From assembly GCA_016839905.1 (NCBI GenBank), contig JAEOTJ010000308.1, positions 1-8,257 on the forward strand: DNA of 8,257 bases, in the 5' to 3' direction. Position 1 is the first letter of the stretch, and each line of letters begins with the position of its first letter. The position numbers and the translations under genes are program-made. This document shows positions 1-6,144 of the stretch, in pieces. The stretch comes from Promethearchaeota archaeon. Its GTDB lineage: Archaea; Asgardarchaeota; Lokiarchaeia; Sigynarchaeales; SOKP01. The notes beneath the pieces were generated by a model. That model worked only from the letters and a program-made list of their open reading frames with translations. It was not told where the DNA came from and ran no database searches.

Positions 1-1149
1 GCAATTATCAAAATACATTTAACAGATACATCCATTACAAAAATGGAAGTTCAAGATATTACTCGCGAAATCTATATATCACCATGGGGTGTTATAAAGG
101 TTAAAGAGAATATTGTACTTCATAATCTTGGCCTATTAGATATCTATTCTTTTAAATTTAATATTCCTGGACCAGCAAGAAGCGTAAAAGTTTTTGATTA
201 TCTTGGTGAGATATTAGGAATGGAAATTGTACCTGAAAGTAATTACACGCATTTAGAATATAAGGAATTAATAATAGATCTATCTGAGAATCGTGTAAGA
301 ATCGTCCGAAATTCTAAAGCTTCATTTTCAATTGAATATTTTCTACCTTGGGAGAAGTATAACTCTTTTGATTGGTTTCGAGAGTCTGTTTTTATGGATA
401 TACACACATCTGTTTTTGAATTTTTAGGTAAATCACAAACTATTAAAATATTTATTGATGGTTGCTACAAAATAGAATCAATTACTGATCCTCCAGATGC
501 TATTGAATATTCTAATGGGATAACAGTATTAATTTATGAATCTGATTATGTTTGTTCTTTAGAAAGTCATCCTATCCAATTCACATTTATAATCGATTCT
601 TTTGATTTTTTACTACGACCTATTGTTCTTATGCTTGTTATCTCCTTTCTAGCTTCCGCTTTCGTTTTAGTTATTAAAAATAAAAAAGAAGAAGAAGTTT
701 ATGGAATTATTAGGAAAGAGTTTCTACCCTTAAATGAAATTCGAGAATTTACTTCATTATATGAAGAAAAAACCGCATTAGTTTTAGAAATAAGAAACGC
801 AATTGAAGGTGCAAAGCGTAAAAAAATTCCTAAAAAGAAGTCTAAAAGTATTATAACGAGAAATACTTCAAAAATGATAGAAGTTGAAAATGATTTATTT
901 CCATTTAAAAAAATAGTACAGGAAACAAATGATACTTTTAAATCGATCATAGAAAATCTAGAAACATTAGAAGCTGAAAGAGATACTATTAAAGATTCAT
1001 TAAATCTCTTAGAAACTCGATATAAACAGGGAAGATTACCTTCTAGAGAAACTTATATGAAATTAAGAGATAATTTCTTGAAAAGAAGGAATAAAATTGA
1101 TAGAACAATTGATAAGAAAATTCAACAATTAAGAAGTTATTTACTTTAA
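1..1149 (+). CDS. RPN1: Ribophorin I (OST1)-like oligosaccharyltransferase subunit, 5'-partial
   Basis: The frame is open from base 1 with no stop, so the ATG at 43 is probably internal and the N-terminal part lies outside the window. Numbering from that ATG, residues 7-23 (TREIYISPWGVIKVKEN) match, from memory, the ribophorin I block T-R-x-I-x-x-S-x-W-G-x-I-x-V-x-E-N at the start of its second lumenal domain. A beta-rich ectodomain follows to about residue 187. One membrane helix lies at about 188-211, followed by basic residues (KNKK). A cytosolic tail of about 155 residues is highly charged and predicted helical, and ends with a segment (about 331-368) resembling the ribophorin I C-terminus. 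In eukaryotes ribophorin I is a non-catalytic subunit of the ER oligosaccharyltransferase, and its cytosolic helical bundle contacts the ribosome in the co-translational complex. Homologues have been reported in Asgard archaea. The ectodomain here should face outside the cell. The Trm112-like gene follows after 14 nt, so co-transcription is likely. The family call is strong; an OST role in this organism is inferred. Confidence 0.82.
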   Translation, partial: AIIKIHLTDTSITKMEVQDITREIYISPWGVIKVKENIVLHNLGLLDIYSFKFNIPGPARSVKVFDYLGEILGMEIVPESNYTHLEYKELIIDLSENRVRIVRNSKASFSIEYFLPWEKYNSFDWFRESVFMDIHTSVFEFLGKSQTIKIFIDGCYKIESITDPPDAIEYSNGITVLIYESDYVCSLESHPIQFTFIIDSFDFLLRPIVLMLVISFLASAFVLVIKNKKEEEVYGIIRKEFLPLNEIREFTSLYEEKTALVLEIRNAIEGAKRKKIPKKKSKSIITRNTSKMIEVENDLFPFKKIVQETNDTFKSIIENLETLEAERDTIKDSLNLLETRYKQGRLPSRETYMKLRDNFLKRRNKIDRTIDKKIQQLRSYLL

Positions 1150-1163
1150 TTTCTTTTTTAGAG

Positions 1164-1808
1164 GTGATTGAGTTAAAACCTTGGCTATTTGATATTTTGG
1201 CTTGTCCTATTGACAAGCATTTTCCCTTAAAGTTATTTATATTTTCTTTTAATAATGATGATGGGGAATTTCAATTATATTTAAATTTATATGATGAAAG
1301 AGACCTATCCCTTATTAAAAAAGATAATGTTATTCAATTTGAAATCGCTGATAATGAAGAAGAAATGCTCGTAAGAGATAATATTATTATTGAAAAACAA
1401 TCCTTAACAAAATATATTAATCTTATTATTTCTAGTATTGATGAGTTAAATAATATTTATAATAAAACCACAAGTAAAACCAGTATTAAATGCTTTAATT
1501 TAATTACATCAGAAATTAAGGAAAAAATCTTAGATTTTTCTAAGAATTTTAAAATAAATCAAATTGAAGATATTTTGCCTGAATTATCTTTCATAAATAA
1601 AATTAAAATAGATGTTGAAATCGAAACTGGATTGTTATTTTGTGATAAATGCCTACGTTGGTTTCCAATTATAGAGACCATCCCACAAATGCTCCCAGAT
1701 GAATATCGAGATGAAAAAAAAGATGTTGATTTTTTAAATGCTAATAAAAAATTATTAGAAGAAGAATTTTTAAATAAAAATCTAAAACCATTTAATATTT
1801 ATATATAA
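1164..1808 (+). CDS. trm112: Trm112-family zinc protein with long internal insertion
   Basis: This 214-residue protein has a split Trm112 fold. The N-terminal piece, residues 4-24, contains LKPWLFDILACP and then FPLKL. The C-terminal piece, residues about 150-180, contains C160-x2-C163 followed by WFPIIETIPQMLPDE, like the 'CxxCG..Y.I..GIPNLLP' end of Trm112. Trm112 is a small activating partner that stabilises several SAM methyltransferases acting on tRNA, rRNA and release factor. Prokaryotic versions are about 60 residues and yeast Trm112 is about 135. This one has about 120 extra residues between the halves, predicted helical around 78-148, in the same place as the eukaryotic insertion. 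The first zinc pair reads C14-x4-H19 where yeast has C-x4-C, so zinc may be held by Cys3His or be absent. The start is a GTG that overlaps the Shine-Dalgarno-like GAGGTGAT (1161-1168). No other usable in-frame start precedes the conserved LKPWL block, so the exact start is only moderately certain. The stop lies inside the probable TATA box of the downstream tRNA gene. Confidence 0.8.
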   Translation: MIELKPWLFDILACPIDKHFPLKLFIFSFNNDDGEFQLYLNLYDERDLSLIKKDNVIQFEIADNEEEMLVRDNIIIEKQSLTKYINLIISSIDELNNIYNKTTSKTSIKCFNLITSEIKEKILDFSKNFKINQIEDILPELSFINKIKIDVEIETGLLFCDKCLRWFPIIETIPQMLPDEYRDEKKDVDFLNANKKLLEEEFLNKNLKPFNIYI

Positions 1809-1810: not shown

Positions 1811-1832
1811 CAATTAAGATATTTACTAAAAT

Positions 1833-1905
1833 AGCTCTGTGGTGTAGCGGCCAAGCATCGAGGGCCTTGAACCCTTTGACCCAGGTTCGAATCCTGGCAG
1901 AGCTA
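1833..1905 (+). tRNA. trnQ: tRNA-Gln (anticodon TTG)
   Basis: A full cloverleaf can be drawn by hand. The acceptor stem is AGCTCTG (1833-1839) with CAGAGCT (1898-1904), with discriminator A1905. The D-arm is 1842-1858, with G18G19 at 1849-1850. The anticodon stem is GAGGG (1860-1864) with CCCTT (1872-1876). The loop is CCTTGAA (1865-1871), giving anticodon TTG at 1867-1869. A 4-nt variable loop precedes the T-arm CCAGG/TTCGAAT/CCTGG (1881-1897). The A1-U72 pair and the GGTGTAGCGGCCAA D-arm are typical of archaeal tRNA-Gln, which is first charged with glutamate and then amidated by GatDE. No CCA is encoded and there is no intron. Position 33 is C instead of the near-universal U, which is unusual. 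A T-rich stretch follows the gene and may end transcription. Confidence 0.93.
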
Positions 1906-2014
1906 ATCTTTATTTATATATGATATTAAAAATTTAAAAAGAATTTTAAATAATAAATATTTTTAATCTTTAAATTAATAATTGGCTAAAAAATCTAATT
2001 AATTGAAAATTTAA

Positions 2015-3394
2015 ATGATCTATATATCTGAATTAAATTGGGGCTTTTATGAGATACTCTTTTTAATCATCATATTTGCTATTGGATTTTCTTTAACTCT
2101 AATAATTATCCCTTATATTATAAAGCTAATGAAGAAAAAAGGATTCATTGGTTTTGATATTCATAAAAATACTCGTCCAGAGGTCGCTGAATCTGGAGGG
2201 CTTAGTATATTAATAGGATTTTCGATTGCATCAATATTTTTAATATTTTTTTTTCCACAGTTTTTTAATGAGATTTTAATTTTTCTCTTAACAGTGTTAT
2301 TAGCTGGAGCAATAGGATTTATTGATGATGTAATAAAACTTAGATCACGCTATAAGATGATATTAATAATATTTGCAGGGAGTCTTATTTTTATTACAAA
2401 TTATATTGGATTTATTCACATAGAATCTCCAACCATTCCTATTCTTGGAAAAATGAGATTAACAATCATATATCCTTTAGTGGCTCCTTTAATTGTTGCC
2501 GTTTTTGCAAATACAGTAAATATGCTTGAAGGATATAATGGCGAAGGGACTGGTACTTGTCTAATTGCAGTATTATTTATATTTATTTGTGGATTAATTT
2601 TAAATTCTGCAATAGCGATATTGTTTTGTACTATTACAATTGCGGTTTTAATACCTTTTTTCATTTACAATAAGTATCCCGCAAGGATTTTCCCAGGAGA
2701 TATCGGTACATTAAGTATTGGTGCAATGATTGCGTGTATTGCATTGTTTGGATCTCTCGAGGCTGTTGTTTTTTCAGCACTTTTAATTCACATTTTTAAT
2801 AGCTTTTATGTATTATATTCGGTTAGGGGTTTTTTTGAGAGCTCTAAAATTCTAGAAAACAGGAGTGATACTATATTATTAGAAAATGATCAGATAATGG
2901 CGTCAGATCAAAAGAAAGCGGCATTATCTTTACCAAGATTAATATTAGCAAAAGGACCATTATCAGAACCTCAATTAGTTAAAAATTTTTTTGTCATTTC
3001 AATAATATGTGGCTTTTTATCTATAATAACCGCTTTATTAATTGCATGGACCATAGGAACTATTAGCTTTCCAATTGTAATAATTATAATTATTAGTTTT
3101 ATTGTACCGATAATCCTTTTAATGTATTATTTTCCTAGAATTAGGGGAGTTGTAGTTTTAATGTTTATATTGTTCATTTCAGGGATTGTCCTCATGTTTA
3201 TTATAAAAACCATTATAATGCCGGCATCCCTTCCACATATAAAATTAATTTGGATTGAAATCCCGTTGAATTTAGTCGTTGTTTTCTTAATTGTTGTCTC
3301 GGGTTTAGGTTTATGGTACCTTATTTCCATCCAATATTTCTGGATTGAAATTAAAAAAATGAAATCATTAAAAGATAAAAAATCAAACAAATAG
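2015..3394 (+). CDS. alg7: GPT/ALG7-type UDP-GlcNAc:polyprenyl-phosphate GlcNAc-1-phosphate transferase
   Basis: This 459-residue multi-pass membrane enzyme belongs to the MraY/WecA/GPT superfamily. It probably transfers GlcNAc-1-phosphate, or a related aminosugar phosphate, from UDP-sugar to a dolichyl-type phosphate on the cytosolic face, the first step of N-glycan assembly. Visible motifs in order are: RPEVAESGGLSI (54-65); GFIDDVIKLRSRYK (101-114) with the metal-binding D104-D105; NTVNMLEGYNGEGTG (166-180), the counterpart of N-x-x-N-x-x-x-G-x-N-G-x-E; PARIFPGDIGTLSIGA (222-237) with catalytic D229; and H259 with N262 in the last family motif. The eukaryotic-type segment LSLPRLILAKGPLSEPQL (304-321) resembles the C-terminal 'TLINL.LK.LGP.HE..L' of DPAGT1/ALG7. 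About three further hydrophobic segments follow, so it is longer than the ~400-residue eukaryotic enzymes. ATG 2015 is the first start. No clear Shine-Dalgarno site precedes it, and the 109-nt gap after the tRNA is plain AT-rich sequence that presumably holds its promoter. The exact sugar substrate cannot be read from the sequence. Confidence 0.88.
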   Translation: MIYISELNWGFYEILFLIIIFAIGFSLTLIIIPYIIKLMKKKGFIGFDIHKNTRPEVAESGGLSILIGFSIASIFLIFFFPQFFNEILIFLLTVLLAGAIGFIDDVIKLRSRYKMILIIFAGSLIFITNYIGFIHIESPTIPILGKMRLTIIYPLVAPLIVAVFANTVNMLEGYNGEGTGTCLIAVLFIFICGLILNSAIAILFCTITIAVLIPFFIYNKYPARIFPGDIGTLSIGAMIACIALFGSLEAVVFSALLIHIFNSFYVLYSVRGFFESSKILENRSDTILLENDQIMASDQKKAALSLPRLILAKGPLSEPQLVKNFFVISIICGFLSIITALLIAWTIGTISFPIVIIIIISFIVPIILLMYYFPRIRGVVVLMFILFISGIVLMFIIKTIIMPASLPHIKLIWIEIPLNLVVVFLIVVSGLGLWYLISIQYFWIEIKKMKSLKDKKSNK

Positions 3395-3552: not shown

Positions 3553-6144
3553 TTGAAAAAAAACCTAAGATACTCATTATTATTTATTTATATATTTTGC
3601 TCAATAGCATTATTTTACTTATTTGGGTTTATTTTAAATCAACCGGATTGGAACCTCATTCTAATAGATTTGACCTTTTGGATTTGTATATCATTATATC
3701 TATTCACTATTAATGAATTTTATCATTGGGCAAAAAATGGGCGTCGCAGTGAGATGAGTGACCTTGTTGCTCTTGGATTCTTCTTTTTCATTATTTTCTT
3801 TTTTACGAGAGATTTGATGACCTCAATGATGGGAGCATTCTCTATATATTTATGGATGGGAATTGTAGAATTGAAAGATTATCCTGTTATTAATAAAATA
3901 TTGATTATTTCATTAGTTACTTATAATGTTATTTTTATAGCGGGATTGATATCTGCATACTTAGGAGACCCATTTATCCTTAATACAACCTTCGCATTTT
4001 CCATTTGGATTATTCTTGGCTTAGGTTTTTTATTGTTTGGTAGAAAATATATAATCGTTTGGCGTTTTATGTCTCCAGCATATTTAATGTTATTCTTGTA
4101 TATAATTGCTTGGTTAGCAGTTGGATTTATAAATCAATATACTCCTATAAATTTTTCTCAATTTATTGATTTTAGTAATTTTACTCTAATAGATTTGATA
4201 TTAAACATATATTTCGTTTTGATTTTAGTAAATTGGGCTATCTATTTTATTTCGGGACCAATATTGGATAAAATGTTGGGGATTAAAAGGCTAAAAGAAG
4301 ATAGAATATTAGATATCGTAGAAGATGTGAAAAAAAATGTTGGAATTAAAGGGAAAGTGAAAGTGGGCTTTGGAAAATATCCAATTTTAAACGCAATGGC
4401 TTATGGTTCGGTTTTTGATAAAAGAATAGCAATAATTGCTGAAGATACTCACCAAATTCCTGAAGATGAATTAAAGGGAATTGTTGCTCATGAATTATCA
4501 CATACAAAGGGAAAGCATACACTTATTCTTACATTTATTACGACTGGAGATTTAATTATGCGCATGTTGCTTGGATTGCCTGCCACTTATTATGATTACA
4601 CTTTTGGAGAACCACGTATTCCTATGATTAGTTTTATTTTTTTAAATTTCGGAATTTATATGTTACTTTATATTTTTGTTAGGATATTAGAAGGTAAAGC
4701 AGATTTAATGACAAAAAAAGCAGGCTATACTAATGAGTTAGCAAAAGCACTTTACAATTTAGAAAGTTTTTACGCCACAGGAAGGGAGATCGGCTTAAAT
4801 ACAATGCTTTTATGTGAAGAAAAGATCACTCGCGACAATCAATTAATAGATTATATAGATACTGCAAAATATATTAATCTTTCGATGATAAGACCTTCAA
4901 GAGCATCACTTTTGGGTAACTTTTTAAATTCTCATCCTCCTACATACTTTCGAATCGCAGCATTATTAGGTGATGATTTAATGCCTGGTAAAGAAGCTAT
5001 TCTTCCTTTTATTTGCTTAAAAAGGTCAAAACAAAAAAAATATGCAAAAAAATTCGAAGAACCACGTGAAAAATTTAAAATCATCGCAAACGATAAATTT
5101 AAAGAGTTTTTTGAAATAAAAGATGTATCTGAATTAATGAAAAACTTCAATAGAAGAGAGAGATTTAGATATATCCTTAAAAAGGATTTTATATTTAAAC
5201 ATAAAATTACAGATGAAATAATAATTGGTAAGTTAGAAGATATTAAATTTATTGATGATATTTGTAATATTGATCAATATATTATTTCTGATTTAAAAAC
5301 TAATGAAAAACATCATCTAAACGCCTTATATTACACATATACTCAAATAGATTTAAATGAAATATATTTCTTTAAAAATGACACTCCATTGTTTTTAAAT
5401 CATATTGATTTGAATCAACAAAAAACTGATGGGAATTATGTTTTTATGGATAAGGATAGTAATAAAATTCTAAAACCGATAAATAAAACAAGATTACCAA
5501 ATTCAGTACAAATTCTTAAAGATTTTAAAGACCATGATATATTCTTTAAATTAAAAGGCACATTAAACATCTATAAATGTAATAACATTATCTCAGCTGA
5601 TAATCTTGATAATTATGAATTAGAACTTATTAATTTGAGAAAAAATGAAGATCCAAATTTGATAAAAATTAAATTAGAGGATTTAATTATCCGTCCCAAA
5701 AATATTTTTTTCTCAATAAGTAGAAATATTGAATTTCGACAATCTGAAATTGCACTCTTTAATTGGTTATTAAATAATCAACCTCGTTCGTTTATATATC
5801 TTAAAAAACCAGTAAATAACTTAGAAATTGGATATATTCAAAAATATAATATAAGTCCTAACCCTAAAAATTTTAAGCAAATATATAATGAAGACCAAAG
5901 CAAATATACCCCCAATAAAGAAAATGTCATTAGCGATGAATCTAGTAAAAATGAGTTTATAATCATAAAAAATATATTTGGAAATGAAAAAAAAATCCCA
6001 TATAAAATATTAGAAATAATATCTTTTGAATATAATACTGCTATGATTCAAAAGAAATCAGAAACATCTATTTTCACCAAGTTCAGCTATAAAATCTTAA
6101 AGAAGTTTAAACCACAAAAAGTTTTATCTCTTAATAAAGTTTAA
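3553..6144 (+). CDS. M48-family membrane metalloprotease with long unassigned C-terminal region
   Basis: This is an 863-residue zinc protease of the Ste24/HtpX clan. Residues 1-240 contain about seven membrane helices (roughly 8-28, 34-54, 70-103, 113-137, 145-162, 174-194, 211-236). The catalytic domain has NAMAYG (280-285), H313-E314-L-S-H317 (zinc ligands and catalytic Glu), two more hydrophobic segments (about 323-341 and 357-377), E380-G-K-A-D384 (third ligand Glu plus conserved Asp), and H461-P-P-T, the family's C-terminal motif. The region from about 490 to 863 is hydrophilic, Asn/Lys/Ile-rich and unlike typical HtpX (~290 residues) or Ste24 (~430-475 residues). It may consist of repeated small beta-rich modules. 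The likely role is membrane-protein quality control or processing of membrane-bound substrates, with the C-terminal region serving for substrate or partner binding, but no substrate can be named. The start is TTG with a good ribosome binding site. The UbiA gene follows after 28 nt. The protease assignment is firm; the C-terminal function is unknown. Confidence 0.88.
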   Translation: MKKNLRYSLLFIYIFCSIALFYLFGFILNQPDWNLILIDLTFWICISLYLFTINEFYHWAKNGRRSEMSDLVALGFFFFIIFFFTRDLMTSMMGAFSIYLWMGIVELKDYPVINKILIISLVTYNVIFIAGLISAYLGDPFILNTTFAFSIWIILGLGFLLFGRKYIIVWRFMSPAYLMLFLYIIAWLAVGFINQYTPINFSQFIDFSNFTLIDLILNIYFVLILVNWAIYFISGPILDKMLGIKRLKEDRILDIVEDVKKNVGIKGKVKVGFGKYPILNAMAYGSVFDKRIAIIAEDTHQIPEDELKGIVAHELSHTKGKHTLILTFITTGDLIMRMLLGLPATYYDYTFGEPRIPMISFIFLNFGIYMLLYIFVRILEGKADLMTKKAGYTNELAKALYNLESFYATGREIGLNTMLLCEEKITRDNQLIDYIDTAKYINLSMIRPSRASLLGNFLNSHPPTYFRIAALLGDDLMPGKEAILPFICLKRSKQKKYAKKFEEPREKFKIIANDKFKEFFEIKDVSELMKNFNRRERFRYILKKDFIFKHKITDEIIIGKLEDIKFIDDICNIDQYIISDLKTNEKHHLNALYYTYTQIDLNEIYFFKNDTPLFLNHIDLNQQKTDGNYVFMDKDSNKILKPINKTRLPNSVQILKDFKDHDIFFKLKGTLNIYKCNNIISADNLDNYELELINLRKNEDPNLIKIKLEDLIIRPKNIFFSISRNIEFRQSEIALFNWLLNNQPRSFIYLKKPVNNLEIGYIQKYNISPNPKNFKQIYNEDQSKYTPNKENVISDESSKNEFIIIKNIFGNEKKIPYKILEIISFEYNTAMIQKKSETSIFTKFSYKILKKFKPQKVLSLNKV

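Follow-up and report, generated by a model that had tools for sequence, protein, structure and literature searches.

Does the protein cut by the left edge of an Asgard archaeal contig represent a counterpart of ribophorin I (OST1 in yeast and archaea, RPN1 in human), and could its cytosolic tail dock to the ribosome? The question is raised by an 8,257-nucleotide stretch of DNA (contig JAEOTJ010000308.1 of the Promethearchaeota archaeon assembly GCA_016839905.1), hereafter called the window. The evidence makes it highly probable that the window encodes the C-terminal ~60% of a true OST1, one of the non-catalytic subunits of the oligosaccharyltransferase (OST), its role in ribosome docking included; the host is probably a Lokiarchaeon.

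The open reading frame (ORF) in question, 382 codons in length, is open at its 5′ end and extends past the left edge of the window (Table 1). It is not a chance ORF, since 453 homologues were found at E ≤ 1e-3, the top one being 59% identical across the entire fragment. Among the best 120 of these 453, the complete homologues (50–59% identical) are mostly 590–630 residues long, about 614 aa, and the names other than “hypothetical protein” refer to metagenome-assembled genomes of Lokiarchaeota/Lokiarchaeia, Promethearchaeota, Thorarchaeota or Hodarchaeota; all 42 relatives from a species-representative genome collection are titled Lokiarchaeota or Lokiarchaeia. In an alignment of the window fragment with 25 relatives (26 rows, 658 columns), the fragment begins at column 274. 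Judging from the aligned sequences, the codons of ~230 N-terminal residues precede base 1, and the window covers no more of the ectodomain than its second half; hence, the ATG at position 43 is internal and not the true start.

In both profile and structure searches, the ectodomain matched OST1/RPN1 before any other listed family. The fragment displays the OST1 ectodomain fold, and its sequence is collinear with the ectodomain of eukaryotic RPN1. The profile of the 26-row alignment matches the human chain 6s7o_E at 90–458 (chain-level E 3e-6), a span that contains the conserved S-x-W-G-x-I-x-V-x-E-N block. In the window protein, this block comprises S27, W29, G30, I32, V34, E36 and N37; S27, P28, W29, G30, V34 and E36 are at least 90% conserved in the alignment, and the aligned segment of human RPN1 carries the same pattern. 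The ectodomain family PF04597 does not match the window fragment alone, but the N-terminal half of the protein is situated outside the window; the family matches 17 of the 26 rows at E ≤ 0.01, the fragment not being among them.

The ectodomain piece is followed by a single membrane helix and, immediately behind it, by a four-helix cytosolic bundle in the structure predicted with AlphaFold2 (AF2). Complete relatives also possess an N-terminal hydrophobic segment recognizable by hydropathy; the window itself shows the C-terminal helix only. The tail behind the helix is ~155 residues long and charged, with 36 K+R and 26 D+E in the final 155 positions. Its conservation exceeds that of the ectodomain piece: the mean column entropy is 0.75 vs. 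1.47 bits, and invariant positions number 35 of 143 vs. 12 of 198. A preliminary description of this DNA had proposed a ribophorin I homologue with the above block, one membrane helix and a charged tail of this length, and all of these are borne out; its suggestion that both ectodomain and tail are kept holds for the tail, whereas the ectodomain is represented in the window by its second half only.

Table 1. Features of the window, with the supporting evidence (residue numbers are those of the encoded fragment or protein)
Feature	Position	Strand	Evidence
OST1 / ribophorin I homologue, C-terminal 382 residues	1..1149	+	ORF, homologues, profile match to human RPN1 and 8WHN
Second ectodomain beta-sandwich, fragment residues 15-198	43..594	+	AF2; structural match to human and yeast OST OST1 chains
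S-x-W-G-x-I-x-V-x-E-N block, residues 27-37	79..111	+	Sequence; conservation in the 26-row alignment; human chain pattern
Single transmembrane helix, residues 200-227	598..681	+	AF2; hydropathy peak 207-225
Cytosolic four-helix bundle, predicted ribosome-docking domain, residues 244-272, 278-309, 311-342, 349-381	730..1143	+	
Trm112-like protein, 214 aa, next gene downstream of OST1	1164..1808	+	Pfam PF03966
tRNA-Gln (TTG)	1832..1906	+	ARAGORN; Rfam RF00005 at 1833-1905
Glycosyltransferase family 4 membrane protein, second protein gene downstream of OST1	2015..3394	+	PF00953
863-aa membrane protein with M48 peptidase domain at 248-472	3553-6144		Pfam

The four-helix cytosolic bundle is shared with the OST1 of Candidatus Prometheoarchaeum syntrophicum MK-D1 (WP_147663064.1), the tail of which has been crystallised (PDB 8WHN). 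The window tail is 37–38% identical to 8WHN and superimposes on it at 1.8–2.0 Å across ~142 residues; as far as compared (8WHN representing the tail alone), the two proteins differ in sequence divergence only. Human RPN1 (8b6l_O, 6s7o_E, 6s7t_E) has in common with the window protein the collinear ectodomain, the conserved block, the single membrane helix and a cytosolic four-helix bundle of ~150 residues, although it is located in the endoplasmic reticulum (ER), vs. the cell membrane for the archaeal protein, and the identity is 17–22% in structural alignments and 11% in the tail. Superposition of the two bundles is loose (5.3 Å across 145 residues). On a 39-row Asgard tail profile, residues 514–607 of human RPN1 fall on positions 51–144 of 149, both spans being 94 long, but the match is weak (E 1.1) and ranks behind coiled-coil proteins, e.g., tropomyosin (best 6.4e-4). 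The earlier remark that the end of the tail resembles the human protein thus finds weak backing in the sequence. The alignments with 6ezn_A, 7oci_A, 8agb_E and 6c26_1, which we take to be yeast Ost1 (the match rows name only the complex), stop at chain residue 470–474; yeast Ost1 is not known to have a cytosolic bundle.

The Pfam matches of the tail to GapR, HalX, DUF3450, PspA, etc. were scattered, helical and low-scoring, below the cut-offs where these were shown, and were rejected. Fission yeast Rex1BD (8j0h), counted here among the near counterparts, is a stand-alone protein with 15% identity and a sequence link at the background level; its human counterpart REX1BD is reported to associate with the proteasome lid (PMC11507723). 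The REX1B family PF14966 matched 3 of 30 tails at E ≤ 0.1 (best E 0.0019); over the curated cut-off it was found in none of 227 Asgard genomes, and at E ≤ 0.1 in 44 of them plus 2 of 14 controls. Among the PF14966 places listed, two (G134, G148) coincide with OST1 tails. The entry 8j0h was absent from one result list of the tail searches as well as from the best 60 of 66 and the best 60 of 63 matches of two others, and when ten REX1B-matching places (L116–L125) were compared with the tail profiles, none proved to be a clear tail (best E 0.0013, for L116). At the level of sequence, kinship between REX1B and the tail does not rise above background.

How the OST1 would operate can be outlined from the human and yeast OST, where the two-domain beta-sandwich is placed next to the catalytic subunit; in the archaeon, it would reside outside the cell membrane, adjoining STT3/AglB. 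The protein would span the membrane once, with the basic four-helix bundle on its cytoplasmic side. By binding the large ribosomal subunit close to the exit tunnel, the bundle may keep the glycosylating enzyme at the translocon during protein synthesis and STT3/AglB near the nascent chain. In the mammalian STT3A complex, the cytosolic domain of RPN1 touches the 60S subunit (Braunger et al. 2018, as cited in PMC6929149). According to PMC11417166, the cytosolic domain of MK-D1 OST1 forms a four-helix bundle with the topology of the human one and pulls down human ribosomes from lysate as well as semi-purified and highly purified ones, and the MK-D1 ectodomain pulled down none. These results support the docking proposed in the preliminary description; binding was assayed on the MK-D1 protein. 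By analogy, the window protein would dock the ribosomes of its own host at the cell membrane, as its MK-D1 orthologue does with human ones.

Two readings compete with this one. The protein could be an unrelated membrane protein combining an M1-aminopeptidase-like beta-sandwich with a generic coiled-coil tail. This is extremely improbable and, in our view, refuted: OST1 chains score ~5 to 6 Z units above aminopeptidases in structural comparison, the AF2 model contains a membrane helix and a bundle downstream of the sandwich but no catalytic domain, and the tail is predicted to be a compact bundle instead of a simple coiled coil and matches 8WHN at E 2.9e-25. Two outcomes regarded beforehand as fatal to the homology, an ectodomain from an unrelated family and a plain coiled-coil tail lacking an RPN1 match, were thus not encountered; OST1/RPN1 comes out ahead, and the predicted bundle fits 8WHN closely and human RPN1 loosely.

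According to the other reading, the protein is an OST1 orthologue by descent, the tail of which does not dock ribosomes in Lokiarchaea but is a scaffold on which other translocon or envelope proteins assemble; human ribosomes would then be bound in vitro because a basic surface sticks to rRNA. The excess of basic residues in the tail is consistent with this, as is the basic-patch test on the tail alignment, which gave no significance and no exceptional pattern. Moreover, the published pulldown was made with human, not Asgard, ribosomes. Among the papers seen, none demonstrates that an Asgard cell couples N-glycosylation to translation. Still, mere stickiness is at odds with the unbound MK-D1 ectodomain control, the binding of highly purified ribosomes, the topology shared by the MK-D1 tail and the human docking domain, and the conservation of the tail above that of the ectodomain piece. 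This alternative is deemed unlikely, and ribosome docking by a tailed OST1 is preferred.

The tail is widespread in Asgard archaea. Of 227 Asgard genomes, 133 have a PF04597 match at E ≤ 0.01 (124 of them above the curated cut-off), as against 0 of 14 controls; 205 of the 227 are matched by the tail profile at E ≤ 1e-5, a count made on Asgard genomes alone with a profile drawn partly from the same genomes. A C-terminal membrane helix followed by 144–172 residues was found in 75 of 80 inspected loci (8 of the 80 are second copies of the same genes); the shortest tail, in L076, reaches the end of its stored stretch. As for the other five, L039, L040 and L042 start at a contig edge within the tail region, L051 is cut by the contig end, and L077 possesses the tail with a helix under the detection threshold. 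The tail match is lacking in 22 genomes; among the 20 listed, four (G118, G163, G169, G179) have an ectodomain match. Long charged tails are nevertheless present behind the membrane helix in G163 and G169, the former matched nearly at full length by the broader profile A3 (E 1.6e-5) and the latter unmatched by it; the G179 gene is cut by the contig end, and G118 has a 199-residue frame starting from contig base 33. No complete Asgard OST1 devoid of the tail occurred among those inspected, which included 3 of the 22 tail-negative genomes. A contig scan with a single OST1 sequence gave 74 pattern matches with no relatives among them.

One Lokiarchaeial bin (G002) harbors two full-length, tailed OST1 genes on different contigs (L007, L022), representing either a paralogue or a mixed bin. 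Longer OST1-matching frames of 981–1233 aa are present in G186, G188, G189, G204 and G218; that of L113 (G186:C45) terminates in the same tail domain. OST1 is also stated to occur in TACK archaea (PMC11417166). In the search for it, the 59 relatives of G227 all belonged to the phylum set covered before, and the L077 OST1, whose relatives include one named Candidatus Baldrarchaeota, gave 7 close proteins only when searched against proteins.

The gene neighbourhood is recurrent. The Trm112-like gene is the immediate downstream neighbour of OST1 in all 42 Lokiarchaeial loci; in the window, a long insert interrupts its match to Trm112 (protein residues 8–170 on profile positions 4–38). The top PDB match of the glycosyltransferase family 4 (GT4) protein is UDP-GlcNAc:dolichyl-phosphate GlcNAc-phosphotransferase (DPAGT1, E 7.8e-11). 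Since it is closely trailed by phospho-N-acetylmuramoyl-pentapeptide transferase (MraY, 3.6e-10), assignment of the protein as an Alg7/DPAGT1/AglH-like GlcNAc-1-phosphate transferase, the enzyme that starts N-glycan assembly, is likely but falls short of proof. Counting the best match per locus (several loci end before such genes could appear), GT4 follows OST1 in 34 of 42 loci, sometimes across a 2–4 kb gap, and lies ~5 kb upstream of it in L013, L026 and L031; further neighbours are an M48 peptidase (32/42), a UbiA-type prenyltransferase (28/42) and a PHP protein (1/42). The M48 membrane protein of the window carries a C-terminal extension of ~390 residues to which no Pfam family matches at E ≤ 1.

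OST1 in Asgard archaea has been mentioned in PMC10307638, PMC8813620 and PMC8993221, and the structure and ribosome binding of the MK-D1 tail are already published (PMC11417166), so the present finding is not new in kind; no survey of the OST1 tail across Asgard genomes was seen in the open-licence literature. What is added here is breadth, i.e., the distribution of the tail profile across Asgard genomes, a further member of the OST1 family, and a recurrent neighbourhood with a probable first-step N-glycan enzyme. If the archaeal ancestor of eukaryotes indeed possessed an OST1 with a ribosome-binding tail, an argument made and partly tested in PMC11417166, the coupling of N-glycosylation to protein synthesis may predate the ER.
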